Assembly (NCBI RefSeq): GCF_000328685.1
Contig: NC_019974.1
Location: 2,843,001 to 2,907,000, forward strand
Direction of reading: 5' to 3'
DNA length: 64,000 bases
From: Natronococcus occultus SP4
Lineage (GTDB): Archaea; Halobacteriota; Halobacteria; Halobacteriales; Natrialbaceae
This document shows, in pieces, positions 17,748 to 22,637 of the stretch (positions are counted from its first letter, which is position 1; the number at the start of each line of letters is the position of its first letter). Under the pieces are notes generated by a model that made no database searches, was not told where the DNA came from, and saw only the letters and a program-made list of their open reading frames with translations. A program made the position numbers and the translations under genes.

Positions 17748-18233
17748 ATGGAACGACCATCGACCCGACGACGGTACCTGACAGTGCTCGGCAGCGGTCT
17801 GGCGATCGGTCTGGCCGGCTGTGCCGACGACGATGACGAAGCGGAAGACGACGCGGCCGAGGACGACGCCGACGCGAACGATGGAGCCGCTGACGACGGC
17901 GACGACGAGGACGGCGACGTTGAATCTGACGAGGGTGCCGAAACGGAGTACGACGACGACGAGGACGTCACCCTGTCGGGCGACGAGGAGGAAGAGGACG
18001 ATATCTCGACCAGCGGGGACGTCACTCTCGAGGGCGACGCGGAGGTCGAAGGCGACGTCGAGTCGGGCGGTGACGTGACGATGAGCGAGGACGCCGAGGT
18101 CGACGGCGACGTGACCGCGGAAGGCGAGATCACGCTGAGCGACGACGCCAGCATCGACGGCGACGCGACCGGGGCGGCCGTCGAGCTCAGCGAGGACGCC
18201 GAGGTCGACGGCGAGATCGAGGAGACCGACTGA
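17748..18233 (+). CDS. Tat lipoprotein with bactofilin-like repeats
   Basis: 161 residues. The signal has STRRRYLTVLG and the lipobox GLAGC. An extremely acidic region runs to about residue 87. After it lie four 18-residue repeats (88-105, 106-123, 124-141, 142-158) of the form G-D-V-T-L-S-E-D-A-E-V-D-G-D-V-T, with alternating small, acidic and aliphatic residues. This periodicity is characteristic of bactofilin/polymer-forming beta-helix domains, in which each repeat is one coil. Bactofilins are normally cytoplasmic or membrane-associated polymers, so a lipid-anchored extracellular version is noteworthy. Only four coils are present, fewer than in usual bactofilins. Confidence 0.8.
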   Translation: MERPSTRRRYLTVLGSGLAIGLAGCADDDDEAEDDAAEDDADANDGAADDGDDEDGDVESDEGAETEYDDDEDVTLSGDEEEEDDISTSGDVTLEGDAEVEGDVESGGDVTMSEDAEVDGDVTAEGEITLSDDASIDGDATGAAVELSEDAEVDGEIEETD

Positions 18234-18352: not shown

Positions 18353-18826
18353 TCAGTCCGCCGTTTCGTCGAGACGGAACGTCTCACGGACCGGTTCCGG
18401 AAGGGGAGGTCGGGGGGCCGCTTCGTGTCGCTCGATCCGCTCCGGCGTGCGCGTTCGCTGATGGACGGCTCGCGCCATCGGGACCCCCTTCAGGTAGTTG
18501 AAATCGCCGAGGACGTCGGCCCCGAACTCGGTGAACCCGTAGAATTTCCACGGCAGGCCGCGCCGCTCCCCGTTCGGGGGGTACTCGTAGACTGCGAGGA
18601 CATCCGCGTCGACGAGCACGTCGAGTTGCTCCTCGACGGTCTTTTTCGACTTGCTTGGAACGAAGTGGTTGATCTCGTCGGCTGACGCGAGGAGTTTCGG
18701 GTGTCCGAGGAGCGCCTGGACGATGCTGTGGCGGGTTTCCTGAGACAGCAGCTCCATCAGCTCACGCTGTCGCTCGAGGGGGTTTTCATCGGTATCGGAT
18801 TTGGAACTCGGGGAGATATCGGCCAT
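18353..18826 (-). CDS. Winged-helix transcriptional regulator, divergent from the gene at 18928
   Basis: 157 residues. A winged helix spans about residues 18-105: RQRELMELLSQETRHSIVQA, a recognition helix around KSKKTVEEQLDVLVDADVL, and a wing RRGLPWKFYGFTEFG. The C-terminal 45 residues are basic then Pro-rich. It belongs to the ArsR-like group of haloarchaeal regulators. A TATA-like ATACTTATCTAT about 28 bases upstream indicates a leaderless message. It shares the 101-base intergenic region with the divergent gene at 18928, where three copies of (A/G)GTATGG surround the other gene's TATA region, so it most likely controls that gene and itself. Confidence 0.8.
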   Translation of the reverse strand: MADISPSSKSDTDENPLERQRELMELLSQETRHSIVQALLGHPKLLASADEINHFVPSKSKKTVEEQLDVLVDADVLAVYEYPPNGERRGLPWKFYGFTEFGADVLGDFNYLKGVPMARAVHQRTRTPERIERHEAAPRPPLPEPVRETFRLDETAD

Positions 18827-18890
18827 TGTTATCCGAGTTTACGGGAGCGGGATAGATAAGTATACGGGCTCGACCTCTTTACGTTAGACC

Positions 18891-18931
18891 AGTATGGTTA
18901 TTTGGCTATATTCCCATACTAGTTGGTATGG
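18891..18931 (+). promoter_or_regulatory. Three-site operator-like array around the promoter of the 18928 gene
   Basis: AGTATGG at 18891-18897 and its exact complement CCATACT at 18914-18920 form an inverted repeat that encloses TTATTTGGCTATATT, the likely TATA region. A third half-site, GGTATGG, lies at 18925-18931 and covers the start codon. The sites are about 23 and 11 bases apart, matching helical spacing. Binding here would block transcription, so this is a plausible repressor operator. Confidence 0.55.
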
Positions 18932-19674
18932 ATCGTATTCCGGAGGAGACCAACGAACTGACGAATTTCATTCTGAATGACGTTCTTTACGGCCTCGAGC
19001 TTGACCCGAAGGATAGTGAACAGCTCCTCTCGTACATGCGGGAGCGACACGAACACCTGTTCGGTCCACACTCGACGTATTTCGTGTTGGGGAGTTACGA
19101 ATCGCCGTTCAAGTATCGCCTCGATGCAGCGCTTAATGTATTGAATTACCGCCATGATGCGTACGCGTATCTGCTCGCTACACAGCCCGAACTCGACGTA
19201 TCGGACGCCGTTCCTGCTCTCAAAGTGAAATTCTTTCTTCATGCCCTCTACGCGGATTCGATTCCGCTGATTCTCGAACACGACACTGGTGGGGCAGTCG
19301 CCGAGTTCGGACGCGTCGAGCGCCCGGCGCTGCTCGACCGCACGTTTCTCTTCCCTCGAGCGCGGGATGAACACTACGGCGACGACTCCCTGCTTACGAC
19401 GCGAGACGCAGTACGTGCCCGGGCCGTCGAGCTGGCGTACCATGCTGACGATCTTTCGGCAGCGCTCGAGACGCTCGCCGAACGGGCTCGCGAAAACGGA
19501 CTGGAACTCTCGGCCGAGGACCTCGACTCGTATCTCGAATCCGAACTCGGCGGTCGCACGCCGTCGTACAGCGGCGTGATCACCGATTCGCTTCGGCACC
19601 TCGAATCCCTGAACCGGTGCTTTTCGTGGACGACAAGGGAGGAACTCGAAGCACAGCTGTCTCACGTTCCGTGA
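18928..19674 (+). CDS. Uncharacterised protein with a nucleoside-deoxyribosyltransferase/TIR-like N-terminal pattern
   Basis: 248 residues, no signal or membrane segment. I do not recognise the family with certainty. Residues about 45-155 look like a Rossmann-type domain. A first strand TYFVLGSYE is followed by a basic Arg-Leu segment, then a strand YAYLLAT. The sequence SIPLILEHDTGGAVAEFGR resembles the D-x-G-x-x-x-E-x-G signature by which nucleoside 2-deoxyribosyltransferases and some TIR/NADase relatives hold their catalytic Glu. The C-terminal 90 residues are helical and acidic. The tight divergent arrangement with a winged-helix regulator and operator-like repeats suggests regulated, possibly toxic or defensive, activity; this is inference. 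Confidence 0.6.
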   Translation: MDRIPEETNELTNFILNDVLYGLELDPKDSEQLLSYMRERHEHLFGPHSTYFVLGSYESPFKYRLDAALNVLNYRHDAYAYLLATQPELDVSDAVPALKVKFFLHALYADSIPLILEHDTGGAVAEFGRVERPALLDRTFLFPRARDEHYGDDSLLTTRDAVRARAVELAYHADDLSAALETLAERARENGLELSAEDLDSYLESELGGRTPSYSGVITDSLRHLESLNRCFSWTTREELEAQLSHVP

Positions 19675-19763: not shown

Positions 19764-22637
19764 TTAGCGCAGCTCGCCCCAGGTGCCGACGAGTTCGTCC
19801 TCGACGAAGCGCCGCTGCTCGAAGCCGAGGGCGTTACACATCATCGTGTGGCCCATAAAGGACAGCGCGTGGTCGGCCATCCCGAACGGGTGGAGATACT
19901 CCTGGTAGGCCGGCGGGAGCGCCGAGCCGATGAGGTTGATCTCGGCGTCGCCCGCCGACAGCGAGCCGGCGGCGACGCCCGCCGCGTCGGTGCCGTCCAT
20001 CCGGCCCGCGACCTCGCCGCCCGCGGCCTCGAAGGCGTCGTCGTCGATCACGGTGATCGGCTGGTCTGGCTCGTTCGCCGAGTAACCGATCTGCGGGCTC
20101 TTCCAGATCTCCTGTTGGATCTCCCGGAGGTCGGTCAGCAGGTGGTGGTCGAAGTTCCGGTCCTCGAGGTTGGCGATCGTGATCGTCGTCGACGCGAGGT
20201 CGTCGGCGCTCAGGTCGGCTGCGTCGCCGACCTCGAGGACGTCGAGCAGGTACAGGCCCGTGTCGGTCAACACGAGATCGCCCCCGGCCTCGACGAACGC
20301 CTCGACGGCGTCGACGTAGTCGGGGTCGTCGATCCCGTCGTCGTGGGCGATCACGAGCTTGTCGTAGTGGCGCTTGCCGGAGTTGCCCTTGAGCAGGCGC
20401 CCGACGCCGACGTGGTGGACGCTGAGGCCTTCGATCGAGCCGTCCTCGAAGAACGGTTCGAGATCCTCGAAGAACTCCAGGGGGTTGGCTTCGTAGGGCT
20501 GCTGGCTGTAGCCGAGGACGACCTCGGGATCGGGATGGGCCTCGTCGCTGTCGACGACGACGATCTCGACGGCCAGTTCTCCCTCGCCGTCGTACTCGAG
20601 GGTCCACTCGCCCGCCTCGGGGGTGCTGAGGAAGAGACTCGAAGGGTCGGTCATACAGCAGTCGTCGGCGTCGTGCTCCGAGAGGTCGATCTCTCCCGCG
20701 GACTCCCCGTCGGGATCGAAGACGCGGACGACGCCGTCCTCGTCGCCGTGGACGAGGAAACAGACCGACACCGTCTGGGTGTTCTCGGCGACGTCGATGG
20801 ACTTGGGCTCGGCGCCGAGGCGGTCGGTGCGACACCGGACGCTGGTTCCGCCGTCGCCGGACGCGGAGCCGTCGGATCCGTGTTTGCCCTTGCCCGTCCC
20901 GGGACCGTGGTCGTCGGGCGTATGCGAGAGGTCGGCCGAGGAGCGGGTGAGCGAATCGGAGTGGACGTAGGCGACGTCCTGGCCGTCGGTGGCGACGGTC
21001 GCGTCGGTGTCCGCGGCACACATCTCGGCGAACTCGCGCATCGAGAGGTAGTAGGCCGTCTCGAGGTGGCGCTCGACGTAGGGTCGCCAGTGTGTGAAAT
21101 CGCGGAGCCCGAGCTCTGGCGCGACGGTGATCGCGCCGAGCCCGCCCTGTTCTTCCTCGATGCCGGCCCAGCCCAGCAGCCCGCCGGTGATGTTGTACCC
21201 CAGCGAGTCGTAGATCGAACCGTAGTCCTGCAGCGTCTCCGGGACGTAGTCGTCGATGTCGGCCGTATCCTGGCCGGCCCGGATCGTATCCTCGGCGATC
21301 GCCTCGGGCCCGCCCCAGTAGTCGTACATCGCGTCGTTGATCTGGCGGTTGACCTCGTCCAGATTGTGCGTACCGTCGTGTTCGTAGGTGGCGTTCGACT
21401 CGAGGTTGAGCACCATCGAGTCCGCCCACCCCATCATGTGGTAATCACAGAGGTACTCGACGTTCTCGTAGCTGCGGAGGTGTTCGACGGTCGCCAGCGA
21501 GTCGGGGACCATGTCCTCGTAGCCGACGTCGTAGCCGGGACGGGTTCCGGGGAGGTCGTCGGCGGGTTCGGCGGGCCAGAAGGCGGGATCGACCCACCCG
21601 ATCGTCGGATACTGGCGGTTCGTGTCCAGCCCCGTCGAGTTCCCGCGCTCGTGGCTGATCGAGGGCTCGTCCGCGCTCGCACCCACGTGGGGTTTCCGGA
21701 CGAGCCAGCCGTCGGGGTTGATGTACGCGAAGACGATCGCGATGTCGTCCAAAAGCGGGTTGAACTCCTCGGCCTCGCCCTTCGCCGCCTGCTCGAGGAT
21801 GCGGCTCCCGGCCTCGCGGCCCGCCTGCTCGTTGGCGTGGATCCCGACGATGAAGACGGCCTTTTCCTTCTCGGCGAACGCCTCGCGGTCCTGGACGTCG
21901 TTGGTAAGCTCCGCGACGTAGATCTCGCCGGGATCGGGGTCCTCGCCGGTAACGTGGTTCTCGTGGCCGGGGCCGTACCCGATCCGCTCGACGTTGACCA
22001 TGTCGGGGTACTCCGCCTCGAGGTGGTCGAGGGCCCGCCCGGCCTCGCCGTGGGAGACGAAGTCCCGGGCGCTCTCGACGGACGGGAACACGTCGTGTTC
22101 CTCGACGTACTCCGGATAGACGTCGTAGTCGCCGTAGGGCTCCTCGAGCTTCCAGAACGGGTTCGCGCCCGGCGAGAAGTCGACGCGTTCGATCCCATCA
22201 CCCTCGAGGGCGTCCTCGAGCTCCGCGGCGGTGAGCCTGGCGTGGGCGGCCGGGGTCGGCTCCTCGCGGTAGACGACCGTCGGCGCGCGGTCGTCCTCGT
22301 CGATATCCCAGTCGGGTTCGCCAAACTCGTCGTCGAAGGCCTCGAGGGACGATACGTCCGCGAACTCGAGGACGAGAGTCGCCTCGTACTCCTCCTCGGT
22401 CGCGTTGACGACGAACTCGGCGACGTCGGTCAGCGCGTCGTCGGTGACGTCGGCCGAAACGGTCGTCGGCAGCGCCAGCGCGGCTCCGGTTGCGGCCGCG
22501 ACGCTCAGAAAGGTTCGTCGGTCGACGCCGCCGCCGTCGAAGGCGTCGTCCTCGAGGTCGGCGGCCTCCGCGGCGGTGTAGCGGTCGGTCTCGGTCGTTG
22601 CTTCCGTCTCGTCGTGGCGTTGATCGTGTGTCGACAT
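19764..22637 (-). CDS. Tat-exported M14-family zinc carboxypeptidase, multidomain
   Basis: 957 residues. A twin-arginine signal (VDRRTFLSVAAATGAALALP) lies at about 39-57 after a hydrophilic leader. Residues about 190-560 are a zinc carboxypeptidase: the metal motif GIHANEQ has H267 and E270, a third ligand lies in CDYHMMGW, and the catalytic Glu is probably in VAPELGLRDF. The C-terminal 350 residues contain a beta-rich pre-peptidase-like segment and a GATase-like alpha/beta domain (GYSQQPYEANPLEFF onward). It should act outside the cell on peptides or peptide-linked polymers. M14 enzymes of this size are common in halophiles. Next to it, divergently, is a second M14-like hydrolase. Confidence 0.9.
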   Translation of the reverse strand: MSTHDQRHDETEATTETDRYTAAEAADLEDDAFDGGGVDRRTFLSVAAATGAALALPTTVSADVTDDALTDVAEFVVNATEEEYEATLVLEFADVSSLEAFDDEFGEPDWDIDEDDRAPTVVYREEPTPAAHARLTAAELEDALEGDGIERVDFSPGANPFWKLEEPYGDYDVYPEYVEEHDVFPSVESARDFVSHGEAGRALDHLEAEYPDMVNVERIGYGPGHENHVTGEDPDPGEIYVAELTNDVQDREAFAEKEKAVFIVGIHANEQAGREAGSRILEQAAKGEAEEFNPLLDDIAIVFAYINPDGWLVRKPHVGASADEPSISHERGNSTGLDTNRQYPTIGWVDPAFWPAEPADDLPGTRPGYDVGYEDMVPDSLATVEHLRSYENVEYLCDYHMMGWADSMVLNLESNATYEHDGTHNLDEVNRQINDAMYDYWGGPEAIAEDTIRAGQDTADIDDYVPETLQDYGSIYDSLGYNITGGLLGWAGIEEEQGGLGAITVAPELGLRDFTHWRPYVERHLETAYYLSMREFAEMCAADTDATVATDGQDVAYVHSDSLTRSSADLSHTPDDHGPGTGKGKHGSDGSASGDGGTSVRCRTDRLGAEPKSIDVAENTQTVSVCFLVHGDEDGVVRVFDPDGESAGEIDLSEHDADDCCMTDPSSLFLSTPEAGEWTLEYDGEGELAVEIVVVDSDEAHPDPEVVLGYSQQPYEANPLEFFEDLEPFFEDGSIEGLSVHHVGVGRLLKGNSGKRHYDKLVIAHDDGIDDPDYVDAVEAFVEAGGDLVLTDTGLYLLDVLEVGDAADLSADDLASTTITIANLEDRNFDHHLLTDLREIQQEIWKSPQIGYSANEPDQPITVIDDDAFEAAGGEVAGRMDGTDAAGVAAGSLSAGDAEINLIGSALPPAYQEYLHPFGMADHALSFMGHTMMCNALGFEQRRFVEDELVGTWGELR

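Follow-up and report, generated by a model that had tools for sequence, protein, structure and literature searches.

What do two divergently transcribed genes on a haloarchaeal chromosome do together, when one encodes a small protein with a motif resembling the catalytic glutamate region of nucleoside deoxyribosyltransferases (NDT) and TIR domains and the other a candidate DNA-binding regulator? The pair lies in the window (i.e. the whole stretch of 64,000 nucleotides that was analysed), which is part of a 4.01 Mb haloarchaeal chromosome. Both of the back-to-back open reading frames named in the original prediction are found at their predicted positions (Table 1), with start codons 101 nt apart in a divergent layout. 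Because close orthologues with 77–84% identity keep this arrangement in at least 10 other genera, the comparison identifies both frames as real genes. A further open reading frame on the opposite strand of the enzyme gene (18919–19665) has a basic, non-haloarchaeal composition and was set aside as a shadow ORF. The locus is flanked by a gene for a lipoprotein-like protein with a bactofilin-like repeat domain (17748–18233, + strand; Pfam Bactofilin, E 2.9e-8) and by one for an M14 zinc carboxypeptidase of 957 aa that matches a TAT signal weakly (19764–22637, − strand); the latter gene converges on the enzyme gene and lies about 90 nt from the enzyme stop codon.

Table 1. Coordinates of the enzyme–regulator locus, counted along the window
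Feature	Position	Strand	Description
Enzyme gene	18928..19674	+	248 aa, ATG start; from the ORF list and homologues
Regulator gene	18353..18826	-	157 aa, ATG start; from the ORF list, a weak HTH_20 match and linkage
Motif HDTGGAVAEFGR	19279..19314	+	Residues 118-129; codon of Glu E126 at 19303-19305
E117 codon	19276..19278	+	Acidic residue, likewise invariant (126/126), closing predicted strand 3
Putative operator 1, ACCAGTATGGT	18888..18898		Perfect ACCA-N3-TGGT dyad at −40 of the enzyme ATG
Putative operator 2, CCCATACTAGT	18913..18923		Degenerate dyad (2 mismatches), 25 nt past operator 1

A profile built from long and short forms of the enzyme has matches in 265 of 391 Halobacteria genomes; a single genome holds as many as 8, and the source genome has three copies. 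Among the matches listed for a phylum sample of 295 genomes, all fall in Halobacteria and in the same order as the window. The homologues come in two sizes, a long form of ~250–290 aa and a short form of ~190 aa; the long forms, including the window protein, carry a helical insert of ~60 aa in the C-terminal half that is absent from the short ones. Searches of the family libraries return no usable Pfam, NCBIfam or PADLOC family for the window protein and a PHROGs match at chance level only. Specifically, neither PF05014 (NDT) nor the TIR families match the window protein and six homologues at E ≤ 1 or 45 homologues at E ≤ 0.1, in keeping with the proposal that the rest of the protein is not a known NDT or TIR, and PADLOC has no match to the window protein (E ≤ 1) or to 45 homologues (E ≤ 0.01). 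Sub-threshold family matches (e.g. Nocobactin PKS and RFC1 lid) and the single match of a PDB sequence search (E 0.047) were taken as chance. The family is absent from the phage collections and IMG/VR searched, and its members are annotated as "hypothetical protein" in the records inspected. Since no library searched names the family and no description of the pair was found in a literature coverage that leaves out most subscription papers, the label "undescribed" fits: this is a previously unnamed enzyme–regulator pair of haloarchaea, and often a plasmid-borne one.

The evidence on fold comes from structure prediction. As the model of the window protein (alignment of 45 sequences) reaches a pTM of 0.63 and finds no match in a structure search, a short homologue from Halalkalirubrum was folded instead (53 sequences), giving a pTM of 0.76 with a well-predicted core; paralogues from the source genome were left out of the structure-prediction alignment. 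Foldseek searches of the PDB with this short-form model place TIR-STING, NDT (7o62 and 9emx) and DNPH1 (4kxm and 4p5e) near the top at probabilities of 0.99–1.00, the two best matches being the TIR-STING chains 9lmq and 9lmr (E 4e-3, at probability 1.00, and 6.7e-3). The best NDT match has an E-value of 1e-2 (probability 0.99) and DNPH1 one of 1.4e-2 (probability 1.00, TM 0.62 by target), while NDT and DNPH1 matches overall have probabilities of 0.90–1.00, E ≥ 1e-2, and TM scores of 0.39–0.47 by query and 0.50–0.65 by target. LOG/DprA and the TIR domain of TLR1 (E 6e-2) follow lower down, no Foldseek match of the short-form model falls below E = 1e-3, and many of the named matches in a BFVD search are nucleoside 2-deoxyribosyltransferases.

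Comparisons at the level of sequence do not confirm homology. Profile–profile comparison (hhalign) of the family with haloarchaeal NDT, TIR and TIR/NDT-like alignments stays at the level of 41 decoy clusters, in a run in which NDT and TIR each matched the bridging TIR/NDT-like family well, and a profile of NDT/DNPH1/TIR active-site motifs run over 526 neighbour proteins does not enrich the enzyme family above background. The NDT-like motif, on which the original prediction leaned, was accordingly dropped as proof of homology by itself. The fold that had been proposed fares better, in part: the short-homologue model meets TIR, NDT and DNPH1 structures first, at modest E-values, but the model of the window protein itself matches nothing. 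With no E-value below 1e-3 and unsupportive sequence methods, we regard a TIR/NDT-type Rossmann-like fold as likely for the predicted structure and make no claim of membership in either family.

At the putative active site, E126 is a glutamate in all 126 aligned homologues and is therefore no chance motif, which upholds the conservation expected of it, and E117, G55 and G128 are invariant in the same 126 sequences. W234 is invariant in all 123 sequences aligned at that column, and R64, Y57, Y51 and R144 are nearly invariant among the 126 aligned homologues. In the short-homologue model, strands 1, 3 and 4 end in the equivalents of the Gly-Ser-Tyr stretch, E117 and R144, and that of E126 lies within the helix after strand 3. 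NDT/DNPH1 and TIR enzymes carry their catalytic Glu in this same helix. The modelled placing of the conserved residues thus resembles, by general knowledge of these enzymes, the active-site layout of Rossmann-like glycosidases, and E126 is probably catalytic, a prediction we hold with somewhat less assurance than the fold.

Some haloarchaea, including the source genome, also encode DNPH1-like proteins with GS-start and GVGYELGRAV motifs (L148, L150–L152, L154–L161). Set by eye against ADSIPLILEHDTGGAVAEFGRVE, the haloarchaeal DNPH1-like ADVVVAEVTTPSLGVGYELGRAV aligns without gaps and matches at D, G, E, G and R. The counterpart of E126 in human DNPH1 is E104, through which the glycosyl-enzyme intermediate arises, with D80 acting as general acid (PMC10603095). 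The gap-free equivalent of D80 in the enzyme is F102, and residues 85–105 hold no invariant Asp; since F102 occupies the D80 position, the catalytic Asp of NDT and DNPH1 is missing.

These observations bear on the possibility that the pair serves inducible nucleotide salvage or sanitation, with a DNPH1/NDT-like housekeeping glycosidase that is not toxic and a regulator that responds to its substrate. DNPH1 and NDT are among the nearest solved folds, catabolic switches classically have their regulator gene divergent from that of the enzyme, and presence in 265 of 391 genomes would suit a housekeeping role. However, such an enzyme would be unusual in its patchy, multi-copy (up to 8) and plasmid-enriched spread and in its frequently broken copies; it would lack the general-acid Asp of NDT and DNPH1, and a separate DNPH1-like protein exists in some haloarchaea, including the source genome. 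We consider salvage unlikely, albeit the strongest of the alternatives.

The regulator follows the enzyme with few exceptions. Coordinate matching in 12 genomes places a divergent regulator next door to 29 of 29 enzyme genes, and an enzyme gene beside 29 of 30 regulators taken at E ≤ 1e-10, the lone one being G088:C1:2340784; further lone regulators occur on plasmids (L218, L219, and L221). Among the named loci L031–L109, the divergent regulator accompanies 76 of 78 enzyme genes; of the two exceptions, L067 lies at a contig edge and L042, whose regulator is 1.7 kb off, is disrupted. Short-form enzyme genes likewise carry a regulator. Linkage to a regulator, a feature on which the proposed two-gene module depends, is seen at every intact, fully sequenced locus examined, and by these counts is close to absolute. 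The proposed winged-helix identity of the partner is less secure: a divergent neighbour is indeed present, but the winged helix rests on a match to Pfam HTH_20 (E = 0.0025, 18.2 bits) below the 27-bit cut-off. An APRP motif is conserved at the C-terminus of the regulator. One clade and a Haloplanus plasmid have regulators with a similar extra C-terminal domain (~370–390 aa in total; L045:4717–5880, L050:3436–4554, and L220:2465–3568).

The sequence between the two genes holds a putative operator. In the intergenic alignment, the ACCA-N3-TGGT dyad is perfect and at exactly −40 of the enzyme ATG in 13 of 13 close (clade-A) orthologues, against a background of perfect dyads in 0.2% of random 110-nt stretches from the same loci, and the second copy of the dyad is perfect in the orthologue L034. 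Clades B and D have the same dyad or mismatched versions of it, often paired 24–25 nt apart, and clade C apparently has a different dyad, ACTnAGT, at similar spacing. Taken together, comparison of the homologous loci shows the pairing of the genes, their co-inheritance, a conserved candidate operator and an invariant Glu, and we hold with high confidence that the enzyme, the regulator and the operator form one module.

What the regulator does at this operator is a matter of position. It could activate the enzyme gene rather than repress it, as operator 1 is found immediately ahead of the presumed TATA region, a site that archaeal activators can occupy as well, and the dyads of clades B and D lie further upstream. 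In clade A, by contrast, the dyads flank the presumed TATA box near the presumed start, which is the usual place of an archaeal repressor. Given that the dyads lie over the presumed promoter, and with start sites that are likewise presumed, we infer repression and view activation as improbable.

The two proteins also appear to have evolved together, with enzyme and regulator distances correlated across 75 pairs (r = 0.95, compared with at most 0.17 in 1000 permutations). Such co-evolution and the one-to-one linkage would also suit a noncatalytic sensor, i.e. a TIR/NDT-like domain that detects a nucleotide signal by binding it and then influences the regulator, e.g. as an anti-repressor, and relatives of the SLOG/LOG type, some of which are sensors, are among the fold matches. 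The two invariant Glu, the near-invariant Arg, the invariant Trp and the strand-end residues resemble an active site, however, and make a pure sensor quite improbable.

The family is often found on secondary replicons, which carry 13 of 29 copies in 12 genomes (counting all but the largest contig), compared with about a tenth of the sequence by a rough estimate from the contigs seen. The short-form cassette adjoins orc1/cdc6 on plasmids of Haloarcula, Halanaeroarchaeum, Halobaculum, and Natrinema, and lies beside parA in Haladaptatus; for long forms, orc1 is within ~6 kb in 10 of 78 loci. Beyond the pair itself, no neighbours are conserved across the family. Raw counts over the 108 nearest neighbours are led by TnpB-like transposon and HTH proteins, with some AbiEi, UvrD/PD-DExK, and Orc1; most are mobile-element and varied genes, and no defence genes recur consistently among them. 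Two local arrangements were seen. On a Halobiforma plasmid, clade-A modules lie upstream of AddAB-like PD-(D/E)XK nuclease and UvrD helicase genes, and large ORFs that take this place at two further loci are probably of the same kind (L042:6856–10596, L043:6799–10428, and L144:6760–13000 in all); three neighbours of the AddAB/UvrD type are listed among the 108. One long-form clade has an AbiEi-like gene just beyond the regulator (L060, L062, L064, L071, L072, L074, L078, L109, and others).

Plasmids that have lost the regulator offer a natural comparison. The regulator is missing in seven plasmid records from six genera (L207–L210, L214, L216, and L217), and in each of them a decaying enzyme gene persists beside orc1/cdc6. 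In the four that were aligned in full, one common replacement extends up to the enzyme ATG, and the remaining three agree with them in gene order and coordinates. The enzyme is broken in all seven, and the copies show no fewer than three distinct lesions among them: frames shifted by +1, by −1 or twice, or interrupted by an in-frame TAG, with a Gly-to-Cys change in the motif region. Programmed frameshifting of these split copies was considered and rejected, because the lesions vary among plasmids and one is an in-frame TAG. The regulator, for its part, is kept where the enzyme is broken (L211 and L215) or gone (L218), and no intact enzyme without a regulator was found at any fully sequenced locus examined. 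Dead enzymes on regulator-less plasmids may reflect the loss of a harmful gene, and they may also reflect decay without a promoter: they represent one deletion lineage, and because the shared deletion removed the promoter too, missing expression may be their whole cause. The adjacency of short-form cassettes to orc1/cdc6 in several genera, and to parA in Haladaptatus, could suggest a plasmid replication or maintenance factor that senses or controls copy number or segregation with Orc1/Cdc6, but this is the least probable of the alternatives, since long forms including the window copy are mostly away from orc1 (10 of 78 within ~6 kb), many copies are chromosomal, and plasmids are maintained even where the module is broken or absent.

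We favor, tentatively, a repressor-locked enzyme that acts on the N-glycosidic bond of a nucleotide and inhibits growth. In this two-gene accessory module of Halobacteria, a dedicated winged-helix repressor made from the divergent gene would bind the paired ACCA-N3-TGGT dyads over the enzyme promoter and keep the enzyme off, until some signal relieves the repressor or the repressor is lost with its replicon and the enzyme is made. The product would be a TIR/NDT-type Rossmann-like enzyme, with E126 together with E117, R144 and the strand-end residues G55-S56-Y57 probably at work, that cleaves or transfers the N-glycosidic bond in a nucleotide, e.g. NAD+ or (d)NMP. Growth inhibition would be the most likely cellular outcome, making the pair a toxin-like effector under its dedicated repressor. 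Toxicity is, on its own, a possibility we hold slightly more loosely than the scheme as a whole. A broader reading, in which haloarchaea possess their own set of TIR/NDT-fold nucleotide-degrading effectors that belong to none of the named families searched, each with a co-evolving repressor, that serve as plasmid addiction or antiviral switches and are controlled by transcription instead of by protein sensing, is rather doubtful. Both the toxin and the defence readings are ones that we infer.

How the module relates to known systems depends on which of its parts is compared. With NDT (PF05014) and DNPH1/RCL the enzyme would share its predicted fold; it has the Glu in the helix after strand 3 in common with them, as well as Tyr and Gly-Ser where strand 1 ends, and it matches DNPH1-like sequences without gaps over D-x11-G-x3-E-x-G. 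It differs in having no profile match to them and no general-acid Asp (D80 of DNPH1), and adds the invariant E117, the near-invariant R144 and a dedicated regulator gene. TIR NADases (PF13676; e.g. Thoeris ThsB and TIR-STING) likewise have a single conserved catalytic-type Glu after strand 3, and TIR-STING chains are the two best Foldseek matches of the short-form model. Unlike them, the enzyme has no profile match to the TIR families and no fused sensor or oligomerisation domain, and it is paired with a DNA-binding regulator instead of an effector or sensor. A separate haloarchaeal family of ~210 aa (L183–L206, e.g. L195 and L196) combines a TIR_2-like domain with a Cys-rich, zinc-ribbon-like C-terminal part; its match to the TIR_2 profile is accompanied by a weak one to NDT, it bridges both in hhalign, and it is usually present in one copy per genome, in Natrialbaceae.

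A precedent is offered by DUF4062 (Swarozyc), a TIR-like NADase family found through sequence and structural similarity in a 2026 preprint, whose members were shown to defend against phages (PMC13174449). In both cases a divergent family of TIR/NDT-like character comes to light in part through structure, keeps a conserved Glu and shows horizontal spread. The window protein differs in lacking a Pfam match at E ≤ 1 and an auxiliary domain, and the enzyme family, which is predicted from genes, is restricted to Halobacteria in these searches; DUF4062 is a precedent for it and not evidence. Toxin–antitoxin modules with a repressor antitoxin (AbiEi/AbiEii) have in common with the pair the two genes, the mobile replicons, a shared promoter region with (here putative) operators and an effector-side gene that is broken where the repressor is lost, which here concerns one deletion lineage. 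The haloarchaeal pair is, by contrast, divergent and not co-transcribed, and no sequence relation to known toxins or antitoxins was found.

The enzyme family occurs in about two-thirds of the sampled Halobacteria genomes, and its near one-to-one regulator, conserved candidate operator and invariant Glu open the module to direct tests in standard haloarchaeal hosts. A toxic enzyme would bring a TIR/NDT-fold module controlled at transcription into the biology of archaeal plasmids, and perhaps into archaeal immunity; if the enzyme is not toxic, a widespread enzyme–regulator pair is still defined.
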